From positions 616,501 to 680,500 of the forward strand of contig JAHRHY010000016.1 in the NCBI GenBank assembly GCA_019671135.1: a stretch of DNA of 64,000 bases, in the 5' to 3' direction. Below are positions 25,337 through 60,674 of this stretch, one piece after another (within the stretch, counting starts at the first letter, position 1; each line of letters begins with the position of its first letter). Below the pieces are notes generated by a model. It had not been told where the DNA came from. It made no database searches and saw only the letters and a program-made list of their open reading frames with translations. This DNA comes from Linnemannia hyalina. Lineage: Eukaryota > Mortierellomycota > Mortierellomycetes > Mortierellales > Mortierellaceae. Position numbers and translations under genes: made by a program.

Positions 25337-25408
25337 AGCAAAGTCGCCCAGAGGAAGAGCGCTGGGCTCATAACCCAGAGGTCGGTGGATCGAAACCACC
25401 CTTTGCTA
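25337..25408 (+). tRNA. Initiator tRNA-Met (CAT)
   Basis: 72-nt tRNA without intron. The acceptor stem AGCAAAG pairs with CTTTGCT and is followed by discriminator A. The anticodon stem-loop GCTGGGCTCATAACCCAG shows anticodon CAT. The T-arm GGATCGAAACC has the ATCGAAA loop typical of eukaryotic initiator tRNAs rather than TTC, and the first pair is A-U, also an initiator mark. A T-run at 25413-25417 is a Pol III terminator. CCA is not encoded. Confidence 0.95.
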
Positions 25409-25674
25409 CAAATTTTTATCCTTTTATTTTTATTTTTTGTTTTCTCTTCTTCCTTCGTTCTTCTTTGTTCTTCCTGTACTCACTCTTTCCGTCCTTCATC
25501 CATCCATCATACCATTCCTTCATCGTATTCATCAACTGCACCTTTCTTTTGCACACACACACATATATATAGCATATTCCTTCTTCACTCTTTTTACTCA
25601 TACCCTCACCACACACACCCTCTCTCGCTTGTCCTTTTCGTCCTTGAGCCTTCGACCTCCACCAACAATACATC

Positions 25675-53025: not shown

Positions 53026-54245
53026 TCTTGGTAGGGGCTTCGTTCACGACGAGGTTGGGGTGAGAGGGATAGCTGAAATGGGATGGTTGTGTTTACCAAA
53101 GGAGACAAAGGTGTAGTGGGCGATCAATGAAACTGATTGTGGCTGGGAGAGTCAGTAGAGTGCTGGCTGAATCACGGTGGTCAGGGATATTAAGGGGTGA
53201 AGAGATAGGCTAAAGAAAACCAAGGGTTTATGATAAAAGGCGAGGAGCCAGTGAGTGAAAGAGCAACGCTCGCCAAGAGCGACAAAAGAAATGGCGTCCT
53301 CTTGAAGGTGAATATGGGATAGATCAGGCTGAAGGATGAGTGGGAGGGAGTGGCGATGGAATGAAACAAAGATAGATAGGACAAGGTGGCATTGGGGGGT
53401 GAGGATCAAAAACATTGATCGGTCGTGTCACAACGCGTGTTATGATAACATTAGTAAGGGAGAGTGGCGAAGAGAATCATGAAGGGGCAATAGAAGGTAG
53501 CTCAGAGAGAGAAAGAGAGAGAGAGAGGCAGGTGGAGCGTTGGGAGCGTTCTTGTACGTCGTGCTCCACTGCGTCCGGTGTCGCTACTGTTGCTGGCGTA
53601 TTGTGGCGGGGTGGCGAAAGAAAGGGTGCCTATGTCAAGAGCTGGCATCTCATCCATGCGTTTGGTCGGTCGCGACATTCCTGCCTACTGACGGACAAGA
53701 TCCTTGCTTTGGCTGCAGACCAAAAGATAAAGAGCAAGAGCGTGAAGGATGCTGTGGATAGTCGATCGGACGACGATCGATGTAGATGAAGCCGCGTTCA
53801 AGAAAAAGAGGGGGGATCATCGTTTTGGGTGTGTGTCTCTCACTTTCTCATCTCTCTTTTTGCATCTCGGTAAGTATTCGCTCGCTGGTGACATTTCTAT
53901 CTCTCCTGTTTTCTGCTGACGCCGGATGTTGCGTTTGGCGGATGAGAGACAAAAGGAGACGGTACGTGGATGCATACAATGGCGTTATTTACCGTGGAGG
54001 TTGTCTTGTGTGGTAGGTGGAGCGCCGTGAAGAAGGAAGGAGGTGTGTGTGTACGTTGCAATCCCTTCGGTCAAGAAGACAACACTGGCATAATGGTGAC
54101 TGCATTTTCGTCTACACTTCTTTTTTGCAAATGGCACACATTTCATAGGAAGCAAGATCCGTAAATCCAAGCATGAATAACACCCCTTTATTTCAATTTA
54201 GAGCCAAGGGCACAAACATAAAGCAATCTTCATTTCTTTTCTTTT
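53026..54245. other. Region between the KH gene and the XPG-Fanzor pseudogene
   Basis: The part next to the KH gene is its upstream region. A (GA)n tract lies at 53505-53527. A plus-strand frame (53415-53789) remains open but has no recognisable domain, is partly low complexity, and is followed by disrupted sequence. It may be worn accessory DNA belonging to the neighbouring pseudogene. Nothing firmer can be said. Confidence 0.4.
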
Positions 54246-55330
54246 GCCATCCCATTAACGGACTGGTTCCCATTCTAAGAAGGAAGGGCTACCACCCTGT
54301 CGCCTTGTACCATTACAGCATCAGGACAGTTGCCACAGGGAGACGTTGGTGGCTGCTTGTTTAACATGCTACAGAGTGATTTGTGACGCCTACTCGAACC
54401 ACACCCCGGATATGGCCCATTGGGTGCTCGAGAAGAACATTATGCCATTTGGAACAGTGTTGGATATGACGATCTATATCGATGGATTCCAGACAGTGAA
54501 GAGCTCGGTGAAGTGGCGCTTTTGACTCGCTGGTCGGTGTTTAAACGAGATTCAAAGGTGTCGAGTACTGTCGATGTGCGCTCAAGAGCCCTCTGTCGTG
54601 TTTGGTCGCGAACCGCCGATGTATCGACATCCGTGCCGGTCTTAGGAGAGTCGACTACTATTTGTGCGCTTTGTACGCTACATGGAGTCAAGAGGCTGGA
54701 CGGTCAAGTTTGTCAAGACTGAGGCTGATGTAGCAGCCATTGCCAAGGACGCTACGCCTCAAGACATGATTATCTCTGCAGACTCCGACATGCTGGGCTA
54801 CACGACGATCCACGCCCTTTGGCGACCAGTGACTGGTGGTCTCATTCTTGAGTATTCCCTGGCTGTATTTCTTCCAACTCTTGGACTCAGTCGCGCGCAG
54901 TTGACAGCTCAGACGGTCGTAAGTTGTAACGACTACAATCGTAATATTGACTCACTCGGCCCGGCAACCAACAGGTCAGTTGTGAAGTTGATTGAGAATG
55001 CAGATCATAACCGAAGGGATCATTTTTGGATAGTCTTGGTATCTTTTTCATGTCAAGTTCTGACTGTGCTTATTATCTTGCGTGACGCAATAGATTCACG
55101 GGTCATTGTTGGACGGTACTTGTCGGACAAACGAGTCATTTCCAAAAACACAACCAGTGAAGACTTTGCCCTTTCGACCAGAGTCTTTGTAGACATGACG
55201 CAGACTAAGACTGGATTCCAAGCAGATTCGCAAGTCGTGTACCAGCAATTACAAATCTGCTTTAAGGAGCTCTGCAGCCGACATGAACGCGGCAAGCGGA
55301 TCAGGAAGGGGGGGCGGCTGGCTGGGTAAA
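54246..55330 (+). pseudogene. XPG/FEN-like PIN nuclease, decayed (N-terminal module of composite gene)
   Basis: Remains of a FEN1/XPG-type structure-specific nuclease. The XPG_N start reads INGLVPILRRKGYHPV at about 54250-54300, but no ATG precedes it. After a frame change, VICDAYSNHTPDMAHWVLEK and IYIDGFQTV appear, then TGA at 54523-54525. A later frame, open to 55329, holds the XPG_I core: EADVA (54721-54735), ISADSDMLGY with the paired acids (54775-54804), and the H3TH-like NDYNRNIDSLG (from 54928), then RVFVDMTQ. At least one stop and two frameshifts make it non-coding today. The acids of the active site are still present, so decay is not ancient. The sequence runs on, in the same orientation, into the Fanzor segment. 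Confidence 0.8.
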
Positions 55331-55429
55331 TATTTCTTGTTGGGTTTCTGTGGATGAAGTCGTGTATAGGAGTTGTATCTAACCATGTCTATTATTATTT
55401 ATTCATGAAATTAATAGGATGCCCTTGTC

Positions 55430-58241
55430 CGGTTCTGAGTGCCAAAGTTATTTAACCGATATCGCACTGTGGAATATCTTGTACACATCCCCGAGGACAC
55501 TGGCGCTCCTACTCAGCAAATACCCCAAGCCAGCTACGATGGCACAAGTTCGATCTCCTCGGAATCCAAAGACCCAAGCCACCTTGCGTTGGCGTGTACA
55601 AAAATCCCCGTCACCGTCCCCGGCTTTCGTTCAAGCGACGAAATGGCAACATGGATCATACCCCCTCCCACTCAAGGCGAAGCAGTTGCAGTGGAAGCCC
55701 CTAAAAGAGCCTGGCCAGCCCACCAACTACCCCTCCGCTAGCATAGCAGAAGCCAGAAGGACACCGCGGCTGAGAGGAGGATGCCCCATTGCCCGACGAT
55801 CCAGCTAGATCGTATGCGGAGACGGATAAGCGCAGCCTGTCGAGGTCGCTTGGATGGCACCATCCCACGTCGTCGTTGGAGATAGGAATATTGGAGACCA
55901 ACGTCAAAAGAGTTCTATCGGAGGATCCCTGCATGCAGGAGGTGGTGGTCAAATGTATTAGAGAAGCTTCCGAGATTGCCGTTGACGTCAAGGGGATAGC
56001 CCAGCGACTCATTACGAGGTTCTTGGAGGCTGTAATTTCGAATGAGATCAGCGGAGGAATTGAGGCGGCGAGATCTGGCGAGGAACGGAATGGAGATGAC
56101 GGAGGCTGATCGTCAGAAAGCTCGGCACGACGCCATTACGGAGGATGAGCGTGAGAGTCTGGACTTTCTTTGCGACAGGATTGCGCCCAAGGCAGATGAA
56201 ATCGATCAAGATGATGGTAGTTGCCATGGCGGTTCGGGCGATGCAGTGCCTCTGGATGCAGAAGACAAAGGGGACAGACATGTTTGATTTTTTCAGTGAC
56301 TTCTCACCTCCCTTTACCCCAAGAACCTCCCCGACAGGACCTCCAAGTCAGGAAAGTCATTTGAAACTTTCACCCACGTCTTGGTTCGTCTCGAGCTATT
56401 TGACATCATCCGGGATCGAAGCGAGGTCAATGAAAGGCATGTCTTTACACCGAGAACAATCTGGCGCGATCGGTCGCTGGTCAGCTTACAGCCGAGCTTT
56501 CAAGGAACGAATTGATGCCAAACAAGCGATGCATTGCACTCTCACCTCTTCACAACAGACGTTTGTCGCATTCTCGGAGAAGGAGCTATCCTTTCTCTTT
56601 TGGAAAGGGGTGTCTTGGGACAACGACTGGTTGACTTGGCTTAGGCGGATGAAGACAGCACCACGGTCACCTCTACGCCGGACCTCGAGGGATGGATGCG
56701 ATTAAAGGAACCTGGATTTATCATCAAACACTTTGTCGGCGATATCGACTCTATGAGTATCTCTAACCTGAAGAGACGCAGGGCAGGCCATCGAGGTGCG
56801 ATCAAGCTGTACTCATTGGACTGGATCAGATGTCATCTTCAATAAGTCGAGGATACCAAACCCAAGGATTACCGGAGCAGTGGCTATATTCCAACAGGAT
56901 CTGTTGTGACCGATGTTTTCCGAGTCAAAGTGCAAACCTTCGAGTTGAAAGAGAGACAGGATGCGAGGTCCAAAAGGGTTCCGGAGGAGGACATGCCTTT
57001 CAGACTGACAACAACCGTCGCTGGAGTGGACTATTATCTTCAAGAAATCCGTCACGTCATCAGGACCAAAGAGGACGTCCACAGACTATGGCCAGGCAAG
57101 GATATGGAGAGGATCAAGATCTTGACGATTGATGTTGGACAAGCATGTGTTGTGGGGGCTTTCGCCCATCTTCCTCAAGACCCAGGCGGATCTAACAAGA
57201 ACAACAGAAGGCTAAGGCAGGATCAGGCACGGAGGACACTATCCTGATAGATCAACTTCCAGCTTCGTCCTTGGTTCTCACTTCGACGCCAACCTTCTTG
57301 GTGCCAGCCCCTCGACGCCACCCTCCTCGACGCCAGCTCCCTCGACGCCGGTGTACTACAGTCTAGCTGTGAAGGCTAAGGCTGTATACCAGCCTCAGTT
57401 TCGGTTTAGAAGGTGACTTGAGGCAGAGAAGATGTCGAGACCGAAGGCGAGGAGTCGGCTTCGGATATTGAGACTCGCCTTCGGCCTCTACGAGGAGAGT
57501 CTGCAAGCGTCATCGACTACATCGACGAATTGAAGCGCGTTGAGGCTCGACTGAAGACCTTCTATACTAGCGATGGGGGTCAGTACCGTCGTCATAAATG
57601 GAACATGGAGAGAGCTCGCCAAGAGGAATTCAAGGCTAAAGCTGAGAGACTTTTGAACTTAGTCGGAGGAAGCTAAGGTCGGAGAGTTGATGATGGTCCT
57701 GACGCAGACCCGATCCTGATAGGAATTGGTTTGTGCAAGTTTTCTTGCAAGATTGGTCTTTCTTCCTCGGGCTCATGTTCTTAACCTACTTTGTTCGAAC
57801 GGTAAGCCTCATGCAATTAGAATATTAAACGATGTTGTTGATGCAATCCAACAAACATAAAGCGAACACAGCTATTGATATACAATTTGTAGGCTCGCGC
57901 TTTGGGCTATGTGGTGGTCGGGCTAAACGAATATCATAGTCGAAAAAGTGCCCGAGGTGCGAGCAGATCGTAGCCCAGGTGAATTTCCGGAGCCTTCACT
58001 GCTTTTACCTTGCAAGCGGAACTATCTCAAGGAAACGGTGACGGTTGAACACATGTCAAGGATCGTCTTGGAGCGTCTGCAGAACCAGGAGAGACCAACA
58101 TATCTTCAACCCATCAACGAAGACGGCTCACACCCCTGGAAGACAGTATCTGCCGCTTCTCTCAACACGACGGCCAGTACCTGCTCCGCCTCTGCGATGG
58201 GCAGTATCAGCTCCACGCGTTTAACCTTGAAGCGAGCCTAG
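55430..58241 (+). pseudogene. Fanzor (eukaryotic TnpB-like RNA-guided nuclease), decayed, with linker to XPG module
   Basis: Fanzors are eukaryotic relatives of TnpB that cut DNA guided by an RNA. Pieces in order: a Pro/Ser-rich linker (55439-55741); a helical N-region with LGWHHPTSSLEIG and EASEIAVDVKGIAQ (55825-56020); SGKSFETFTHVLVRLELFD (from 56348); FVAFSEKELSFLFWKG (near 56570); TVAGVDYYLQEIRHVI; and RuvC-I ILTIDVGQACVVGA with Asp codon 57131-57133. Then follow LAVKAKAVYQPQF (57363-57401), YRRHKWNMERARQEEF, GYVVVGLNEYHS with Glu codon 57929-57931, a zinc ribbon CPRC (57949-57960) plus LHC and CKR, and RPTYLQPINEDGSHPW. An intron (57802-57892, GTAAGC to TTTGTAG) fits between the RuvC parts. 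Several frameshifts and stops occur, and the final HRD-type Asp motif is gone (KETVTVEHM). Confidence 0.8.
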
Positions 58242-60674
58242 TAGCTTGTTAGACAAGACCCTACTGCTGGATAGGGGATATTGGGTTCGCGATCATATCG
58301 CCTCGGTGACGCAATTTGTGCGCCCAATATTGTCCATCCCCCCCCTTTTTTTCTCTCCGATCCAACAGCCCAAAAAAAAAAATTCGCCTAACAGATAGGA
58401 CAATTGTTTTTCTCTATTCAATATCAATCGGAGCGGATGAAGAAAACCAAAAAAATGAAGGGCAGAGGGATGGGAAGGAGGAAAAAATGGTATGTGATAC
58501 TCCAGAAGCGAAAAGGAAAGAGAGGGAAGAAAGCCAAGACTACAGCCCCCAGGAATGCAGGCTTATCACAGCCAGAGAAAAATAAAATCCACACATGGGC
58601 CCTATGGAAGCAGGCAGGGGGGCGCTGGGAAAGGGGCAAGAGGAGAAGAAAGCGAGGGATTGTAAAGAACCGTGGGTTCGGACCACGGTAGTGTTTCTTG
58701 GCAGTTCTGTGGGAAGCAGGAGGAGGAACGATCGTGCCGAAATGAAAGAGTAAAGCATGCGTTGTTCTGTATTCTGGGAGGGAGAGAAAAAGCTAAAGAG
58801 ATGGATGAAGCAGGCTGTGTTGGTTGGCAAAGGGCGGAACCAAACTGCTTACAGAGAAAAGGCCACCAATGAGAGCGGAATAAATGAAGGGAAGAGCAAA
58901 AACAGACAGCATTGGAGCTTCAGATCGGTGCGGACCCTTGTTGGGTCTGAGGGTTATGTTACATGTGGAGCACAGCCCTAGCACTCTACATGCAAAAATT
59001 CTATTAGAGGGCTTGAAAAAAAAGGAGGCTGGACGTACTCAACAAGAGCAAAAAGAGCAGAGATGTGGCAGGGACAAGGTCAGGGATTGTGAGAAAGGGA
59101 TAAAGAAAAAACAACAGCCCATATTCGTGGATTGGAGGGGAATGGTGCTCTTCGTCCCGCGGAACAGTATTGCACTTTATTATACATGAACAATGTACAC
59201 CATAGCAACAACAAAAAGCCCTGGATGGCAGACACTGATGGCGGGAAGAGGTTAGAGAAGAATATGGAGAGCGGGATATGGAGGACAGTGAGGGGACGGT
59301 AGGAAGCATAACGAAAAGTGGTGGCAGAGAAAGGGCGGCATGGATGCGCTGTGGTATATTCAACGCAATAGCCCAGACAACACGACAACACACAGATAAA
59401 GGAGAGAATGGACAAAGAACAGGCACACATACTGACACACTGACTGCACTTGGATATTTTTGGTGGGCAATTGAGCACAAACAATGCAGGTTCGATACAT
59501 TCATTTTTTGCAGACGAAAACCCTACTCTCTTGTTGGTCATTTATGGTACCGATCACCTCCCTGCCATTCCGTTTGCTCACTTTCTATATCCTCGGCGAA
59601 ATTGTTTGGACTGTCATCGCAGCACTCACTTACTTCTTTCCTTATTTACTTGCTTGCTTAGTTACTTTGTTGCTCGCTTGACCTTCTTCCTTTCCCTCCT
59701 ACTCCTTGTCTCTTCAGCTAACAATAAAGTTGCTGCACTCCCTCCCGTTCACTTCACTTCACTTCACATCCGTCCAGATCCATCTTGACTTGCTTGCTAG
59801 CCCAGCCACAACATTGAAATGCATAAAAGGGTCTTGCTGAACTTGACTGGCAGTATCTCTTTCTCTTATTCTTCACTTTTATTTTCACTCCTCACCTCTA
59901 CTGCTCCTTGCCATTGGCTTTTGAAAAACGCCTTTGTTCCTAATCATTTTCATCCTTTCATTCTTTCAGTTTCATTCATTCATTCATTCATTCATTCATT
60001 TTCTCTTCTTTGTTCAGTATACCTTTACTCAGCGCATACACGCATCATTGTTCCACTATTTCCTTACCTTATTCAATCGACTACCGTTCTCACATCCCGT
60101 TTTGATACCATTCAACTAAGCAAGTCAGGGGGCCGCCACACCACATCAGCTCCAGAAACATTCTATTCTTCATAAGTAAGTCTGTCAACTTAGATGCCGA
60201 TCGTGCTTATCTTTTTGTTTTTGTACAACCATGACAGTGTTGCTAACTCTAATTTGCCTATCCCTTTAGTTTTTTCTCTCTTTCTTGCATATCCACTCAA
60301 TCGTCAAACGTCAGTTCTCCACATTCAGTGTGTCAATCACTCACTTTCCTGGTGCCTTTTGCTCCACGACTTGTAGTACCTTCCGAGCTTCCTCTTACTC
60401 CATTCATCAGCGTAGGGTCTGTTAATACCCGAGCATCTGTTGACATTGCAAAAAAAAACAGCCCAACAGCCCGCCTACAAGTATCAACTCAGCCCCTCAA
60501 CAAAACATCTCCATTCAACCAACCTTACCTCGACCAGCTGGCTTGTAGATACCTGTTAAGCCCTCTCTCTATTTCCTCCAACAATCTGCTCCTTTTAATA
60601 TTACCACTGGCCCCATTTATTCGGCAAGCATCTTCCACCTATCCTACTTGTGGCCGAAAATCACACTCAGCAGG
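58242..60674. other. Intergenic region, probably including the leader of the Crz1-like gene
   Basis: About 2.4 kb without a convincing gene. Part of 59600-60670 is CT-rich and probably belongs to the promoter and 5' leader of the zinc-finger gene. An ATTC tandem repeat lies at about 59975-60000. Several frames of 60-170 codons overlap on both strands here but look like composition effects. I looked for tRNA or snRNA folds and saw none. Confidence 0.5.

Follow-up and report, generated by a model that had tools for sequence, protein, structure and literature searches.

On the forward strand of a stretch of 64,000 nucleotides from the fungus Linnemannia hyalina, a member of the Mortierellaceae (contig JAHRHY010000016.1, positions 616,501 to 680,500; this whole stretch is the window), there lies a decayed, transposon-borne gene which by its sequence is a dead copy of what we call XPG-Fanzor, that is, of a protein with two nuclease parts, the first related to XPG, FEN1 and EXO1 and the second to Fanzor, the eukaryotic relative of TnpB. 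The gene was placed at 54,269-58,238 by tblastn with the proteins of relatives: P0072 spans 54367-58238 in collinear pieces (E 2.6e-158) and P0075 spans 54269-58217 (E 1.05e-152). A sequence-only reading had assigned 55430..58241 to a decayed Fanzor, and all the motifs it named on the plus strand, from LTIDVGQ through the C-terminal tail, were found where it had put them; the collinear matches, the frame changes and the stops likewise speak for a decayed Fanzor. Its limits and its interpretation had to be widened. The gene starts about 1.2 kb earlier, at ~54.25-54.27 kb, a right-end motif follows the Fanzor motifs, and the XPG/FEN1-type first quarter of the gene had been overlooked together with the elements of Mutator-like (MULE) type to which the relatives belong. 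The features of the copy are collected in the table, in which the labels beginning with P denote proteins and those beginning with L copies in the genome.

Table. Features of the XPG-Fanzor copy, in positions of the window
Feature	Position	Strand	Basis and remarks
Tentative left end of the element, GACAACACTGG	54078..54110	+	resembles, reversed, the sequence that follows the gene directly on its 3' side in another family of copies
XPG/FEN1/EXO1-like nuclease domain, decayed	54248..55314	+	tblastn to P0075; start extrapolated from residue 8 at 54269; intron 1 remnant inside
Fanzor linker and N-terminal (REC/WED-like) part, decayed	55418..56505	+	tblastn to P0080, P0087, P0082, P0075
WED/RuvC-I part	56541..57751	+	tblastn; stops and frame changes
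RuvC-I motif LTIDVGQ	57122-57142	+	catalytic Asp codon 57131-57133
LAVKAKAVYQPQF	57363-57401	+
Last-intron remnant, GTAAGC...TTGTAG retained	57802..57892	+	read from sequence; position relative to ARSLGY as in L032 and L023
RuvC-II glutamate, zinc-ribbon CPRC and C-terminal tail YLQP...PW	57893..58235	+	three frames
GLNEY	57920-57934	+
Zinc-ribbon CPRC piece, SKKCPRCEQIVAQVNFRSLHC	57940-58008	+	different frame; tblastn, 65% identity to P0080
Tail, YLQPINEDGSHPW	within 58011-58235	+	third frame; tblastn, 43% identity to P0080
Decayed right end, GCCTCGGTGACGCAATTTGTGCGCCCAATATTGTCC	58300..58335	+	loose right-end pattern

The XPG-like part is matched by P0075 at 54269-54346 in frame 2 and at 54364-55314 in frame 1, the latter with 2 stops, and the protein search of the genome for this part returned C8:670861-671577 at E 5.5e-40. 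Further downstream, 56591-57199 is 60.6% identical to the copy L025 by tblastn, and the motif YRRHKW is also present on the plus strand. The decay of the gene is visible throughout: against P0080 the frames follow each other as 1>2>1>3>2>1>3, with some of the changes at intron sites, four tblastn pieces contain 2, 1, 4 and 16 stops, of which some lie in intron remnants or in out-of-frame read-through, and where the relatives have HRD the window copy reads LKE, the RD being lost and the frame broken. A copy on contig C17 shares 83% DNA identity with the window copy over ~1.26 kb; at the right end 58272-58326 is 87% identical over 55 bp to the same place in this copy, L026, and the right-end match in the table is the sole one to the loose pattern on both strands of the window. 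At the left, blastn aligns 54061-54110 with the opposite strand of L021/L022/L041 at 84% identity in 55 columns; the 20-bp motif typical of the ends could not be recognised at this place, which is absent from the matches with at most 6 mismatches, and no convincing target duplication was seen for the window copy.

The expectation that intact relatives exist in the same genome was borne out. The copy L032 on contig C4 has four GT-AG introns of 108, 101, 88 and 109 bp, and splicing yields a single stop-free frame of 1335 aa, whose product is identical over its full length to KI688_002751 of Linnemannia hyalina; the genome further contains 91 matches to the TnpB zinc-ribbon family PF07282. XPG_I and PF07282 are both precomputed in one database entry for P0075 (Podila verticillata) and for P0076 (Linnemannia gamsii). 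Three protein searches (71, 22 and 46 hits, overlapping, some rows without an organism name) returned, among the named rows, only genera that we take to belong to the Mortierellaceae or their close kin, and 29 pattern matches on viral contigs included no relative. Three groups of copies (C1:941863, C1:3811927, C1:1878270 and similar) have equal scores within the group and spacings of ~3135, 3101 and 3015-3025 bp, a pattern that points to families which multiplied recently.

At the gene level the two nuclease parts are fused. The XPG and linker exons are in the same phase in L032 and also in P0080, the public model of the L023 copy, and the very diverged copy L047 (C23:1074000-1078300) joins an XPG-like part (E 4e-9 to P0072) to a RuvC-I motif, read by eye, in an uninterrupted frame of at least 1319 aa with no intron between the two nuclease parts, the zinc ribbon following in the next piece (1.2e-10). 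Genome-wide, 95 XPG matches were merged into 80 places, and 59 of the 91 ribbons have such a place at most 6 kb upstream on their own strand (median gap 3119 bp), where 0.42 would be expected by chance; another arrangement was seen for 5 ribbons.

Both active sites are conserved in XPG-Fanzor as judged from the alignments. In the XPG half, the family PF00867 (XPG I-region) is recognised at E<=0.01 in 9 of 12 aligned proteins (best 2.7e-6), and the predicted fold is that of EXO1/FEN1. The metal-binding carboxylates occupy positions 81, 166, 168, 187 and 235 in all 11 proteins compared, position 185 in 10 and position 36 in 9 (one gap, one Lys). A search of the PDB with a profile of the 12 proteins found RAD2 at 6.8e-5, the XPG frame as a single sequence found RAD2 only at 0.027, and a profile of 50 proteins, many of them fragments, found nothing at 0.01; alignment A2 comprises 28 of the 71 XPG hits, hand-picked from the list. 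The domain differs from XPG/RAD2, FEN1 and EXO1 in being only 14-18% identical to them in the structural rows, in the replacement of the second Glu of a pair by Asp (residue 168, Glu in FEN1), and in being fused to a Fanzor and borne by a transposon. It is a putative structure-specific nuclease.

The RuvC-bearing half is, by its motifs, a Fanzor, and its cleavage is presumably RNA-guided. PF07282 matches P0072 at 2.1e-14 and is found at E<=0.01 in 8 of the 12 aligned proteins, some of which are truncated, while the RuvC catalytic D, E and D are kept at all three positions in 11 of 11 long proteins. The motif of Bao and Jurka (PMC3627910), D-X-[TS][TS]XX-C4-RD, was applied as the unanchored pattern D-X(125,275)-[TS][TS]XX-C4 zinc finger-X(5,50)-RD and was found in 11 of the 52 retrieved proteins, and TSxxCP lies 193-267 residues past the RuvC-I Asp in 10 of them (246 in P0072), many of the 52 being partial. 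A TDG motif in the WED domain is a feature of Fanzor1 and a DPG motif at RuvC-I one of Fanzors (PMC10711439): T895 and D896 are present in at least 90% of 12 proteins and G897 is invariant, and L047 reads DPG, where the other copies seen have DGGQ, DAGQ, DLGQ or DVGQ. Among known structures SpuFz is the best match of the predicted C-terminal part; a single-sequence PDB search with the RuvC frame gave nothing useful. With Fanzor1 (the proteins SpuFz1 of Spizellomyces punctatus and PpFz1 of Parasitella parasitica, and the MuDr-type elements ROr-4, PBl-3 and MCi-4 of Bao and Jurka 2013) XPG-Fanzor shares the C-terminal motif, the RuvC D/E/D, the GLNEY glutamate, the TDG in the WED region, the best structural match and elements with inverted ends and target duplications of the 9-bp type. 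It differs from them by the additional XPG/EXO1-like nuclease at the N-terminus, and its long models reach about 1,170-1,360 aa; SpuFz1 has a length of about 640 aa.

The elements themselves have recognisable ends. Both ends share GGACAATGGNCGCCATAATT, and the 20-bp motif occurs with at most 2 mismatches at 68 sites of the genome, its reversed control at 1; for the longer right end the numbers are 117 and 0. For 26 of 100 right ends listed out of these 117 a zinc ribbon lies at most 1.5 kb ahead on the same strand (median 328.5 bp; other arrangement 0); the other 74 are possible 'ghost' copies holding only a guide RNA, and they recall the 'ghost' elements of Spizellomyces (PMC10432273). Target duplications of at least 8 bp flank five of nine elements tested: those in C1 (GACATTGGG), L033 (ATTTGCATG), C8 (ATCGCGTGGGTT, part of which may be terminal repeat), L042 (AGGCATCC) and, doubtfully, L023 (CATTCTACT); none was found in L031, L032, L043 and L044. 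The C8 and C1 elements are homologous over ~8 kb (94.9 and 98.6% identity), and each of these two long elements contains, on the opposite strand, a transposase-like gene in which a SWIM finger and motifs resembling those of MULEs can be read by eye. By motif reading and blastn to these two elements, the same type of gene lies between XPG-Fanzor-type ends in L044, where SWIM scores 19.3 bits against a cut-off of 19.6. The elements thus resemble MULEs in their inverted ends, their target duplications of 8-9 bp and their transposase-like frames with a SWIM finger and motifs of the HINTNNLVESWH type (by eye), but differ from them in that none of the 23 genome matches to the MULE transposase family PF10551 falls at an XPG-Fanzor locus and in that they carry the Fanzor-type protein with two nucleases. 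No Pfam family was recognised in the frames of L027 and L028. From Rhizopus, Phycomyces and Mucor, Bao and Jurka (PMC3627910) reported Fanzor1 elements of the MuDr type that lack a transposase.

Several observations on these ends may be recorded. L043 (C1:239060-240670) is a near-perfect foldback (palindromic) element of ~1.5 kb with the XPG-Fanzor right end at both ends, and C8:434558-436097 is a second, foldback-like pair of right ends. An extra right-end motif in the same orientation lies near the left end, ~75 bp ahead of the start codon of the XPG part, in L023 (3092-3125) and L024 (3014-3047), and is possibly regulatory. In L027 and L028 the block CACTTCGGTGACGTAGTT stands twice in tandem in the last 90 bp ahead of the right end, and its TGACGT resembles a bZIP-type binding site.

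Fanzor is an RNA-guided endonuclease whose guide RNA comes from the right end of the transposon (PMC10432273). Between the stop codon and the right end of XPG-Fanzor elements we found a 5-bp stem, kept in 13 of 15 aligned rows (L027 and L039 are gapped there), in an alignment from which L026, L035 and the window copy were dropped as decayed or dissimilar and to which L024, L032 and L042 were added. All 60 of 60 cells are paired, one position shows three pair types, and the covariation of 0.277 was attained in 0 of 500 shuffles (0.112 shuffled); the pairs changed on both sides were reached by 29 of the 500 and the pair types by 324. As the stem is short and rich in GT, two slid versions of it still have 80-87% of their cells paired. 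As a guide-RNA candidate this stem is a lead only.

We hold it to be rather probable that the window carries a dead transposon-borne XPG-Fanzor of ~1,300 aa, in which an XPG/FEN1/EXO1-family nuclease precedes a TnpB-type RuvC Fanzor, and that the protein would have worked as follows. The Fanzor part would be directed by a guide RNA that originates at the element's right end, between the stop codon and the terminal repeat, and would open an R-loop at a matching site, for example an empty donor site, where RuvC would cut. The fused XPG-type domain would act on the resulting structure, either by a cut at the flank of the R-loop or by EXO1-like trimming of 5' ends, and its action would tip repair towards restoring the element by copying. 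For movement as such, the element would depend on a transposase of MULE type which it encodes itself or which a related element supplies. XPG cleaves the 3' flank of R-loops in vitro (PMC7286691, citing earlier work), and the simplest reading would be that the XPG/EXO1-like domain works on the R-loop or on RuvC-made ends; the guidance by RNA, the identity of the guide, the activity of the XPG domain, the role of the transposase and this division of labour we infer.

One could argue that the element merely holds neighbouring genes, one for an XPG-like nuclease and one for a Fanzor, whose separate products are joined only by gene predictors, since numerous models in the databases are split or flagged as partial and P0092 and P0093 stop at or before RuvC. 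This we consider quite improbable, as the exon phase agrees in two copies, L047 runs without a stop from the XPG-like part to the RuvC motif, and single-protein models exist in several species. It could also be that the XPG domain works in transposition, on flaps or hairpin ends of the element in excision or insertion of the MULE type, with Fanzor as a passenger or in a separate job; the inverted ends, the MULE-type features and the foldback copy with the same ends would fit such a role, but other MULEs transpose with no such domain and the domain is fused to Fanzor rather than to the transposase, which leaves this role unlikely. Trimming of RNA by the XPG domain, either in guide-RNA maturation or by cutting RNA-DNA hybrids, instead of action on target DNA, would suit a family whose members act on RNA-containing flaps and a Fanzor that uses an RNA of the right end; canonical Fanzors such as SpuFz1, however, function without an XPG-type domain (PMC10432273), and we give this explanation little chance.

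A number of results weigh against the reading of a dead XPG-Fanzor with the proposed mechanism. The PF07282 profile, which the sequence-only reading had counted on as a check, has none of its 91 genome matches in the window, and Pfam found nothing relevant in 10 stop-to-stop pieces of it (best the unrelated IFT57 at 0.042 and DUF5997 at 0.071); therefore the identity of the window copy depends on its better-preserved relatives. No XPG partner was detected for 32 of the 91 ribbons, and 21 XPG places are also unpaired; thus either part of the family lacks the fusion or decay has put the partner beyond detection. The XPG part of the window is itself counted as unpaired because its ribbon was not called. 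The long frame of L047 contains no Pfam family and its PDB search was also empty. Pfam cut-offs are not reached by XPG_I in P0072 (20.1 versus 24.9 bits), P0096 (21.7) and P0094 (19.5), and the NCBIfam matches to FEN-1 and guided_TnpB are both far below their cut-offs. The C-terminal model is weak, with a mean predicted local distance difference test score (pLDDT) of 57.7, and the scores of other RuvC nucleases come near that of SpuFz. The guide-RNA evidence consists of one 5-bp stem, the terminal UUCG-type hairpin showing no covariation, and the ratio of nonsynonymous to synonymous substitution (dN/dS) in recent copies, which have few differences, gave no clear sign of selection.

A second Fanzor relic of this kind, L035 on C8, lies on the opposite strand ~1.8-4.7 kb past the window's right end, with recognisable linker, RuvC and zinc ribbon; tblastn did not find an XPG part in it. 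A frame resembling by eye the integrase tail and chromodomain of Ty3/Gypsy (L025:2547-3368, minus strand) stands shortly before the point where XPG is cut off in L025. L024:1571-2971 is a truncated copy from another XPG-Fanzor family that ends exactly at the start of the homology of the next element, which suggests nested insertion or recombination. At the gathering threshold Rfam finds a single match in the window, a tRNA-Met gene at 25337-25409 (plus strand).

XPG-like nucleases occur in some other transposons. We file XPG-Fanzor as a variant of Fanzor, in a combination for which no earlier description was found in the literature searched, an earlier mention in papers outside it, e.g. Jiang et al. 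2023, being possible; excerpts of PMC3627910, PMC10711439 and PMC10432273 contain neither XPG nor FEN1. The window copy is dead, and the interest lies in the family, in which a Fanzor, a eukaryotic RNA-guided nuclease, is tied to a nuclease of the repair type that works on R-loop flanks, flaps and 5' ends. Tentatively, XPG-Fanzor may be a natural RNA-guided enzyme with two nucleases, which unites in one transposon protein a programmed break and the steering of its repair towards copying the element. The family makes testable the hypothesis that Fanzors aid their elements through breaks whose repair restores or copies them, and it would offer a template, made by nature, for a nuclease with control over the ends of its cuts.
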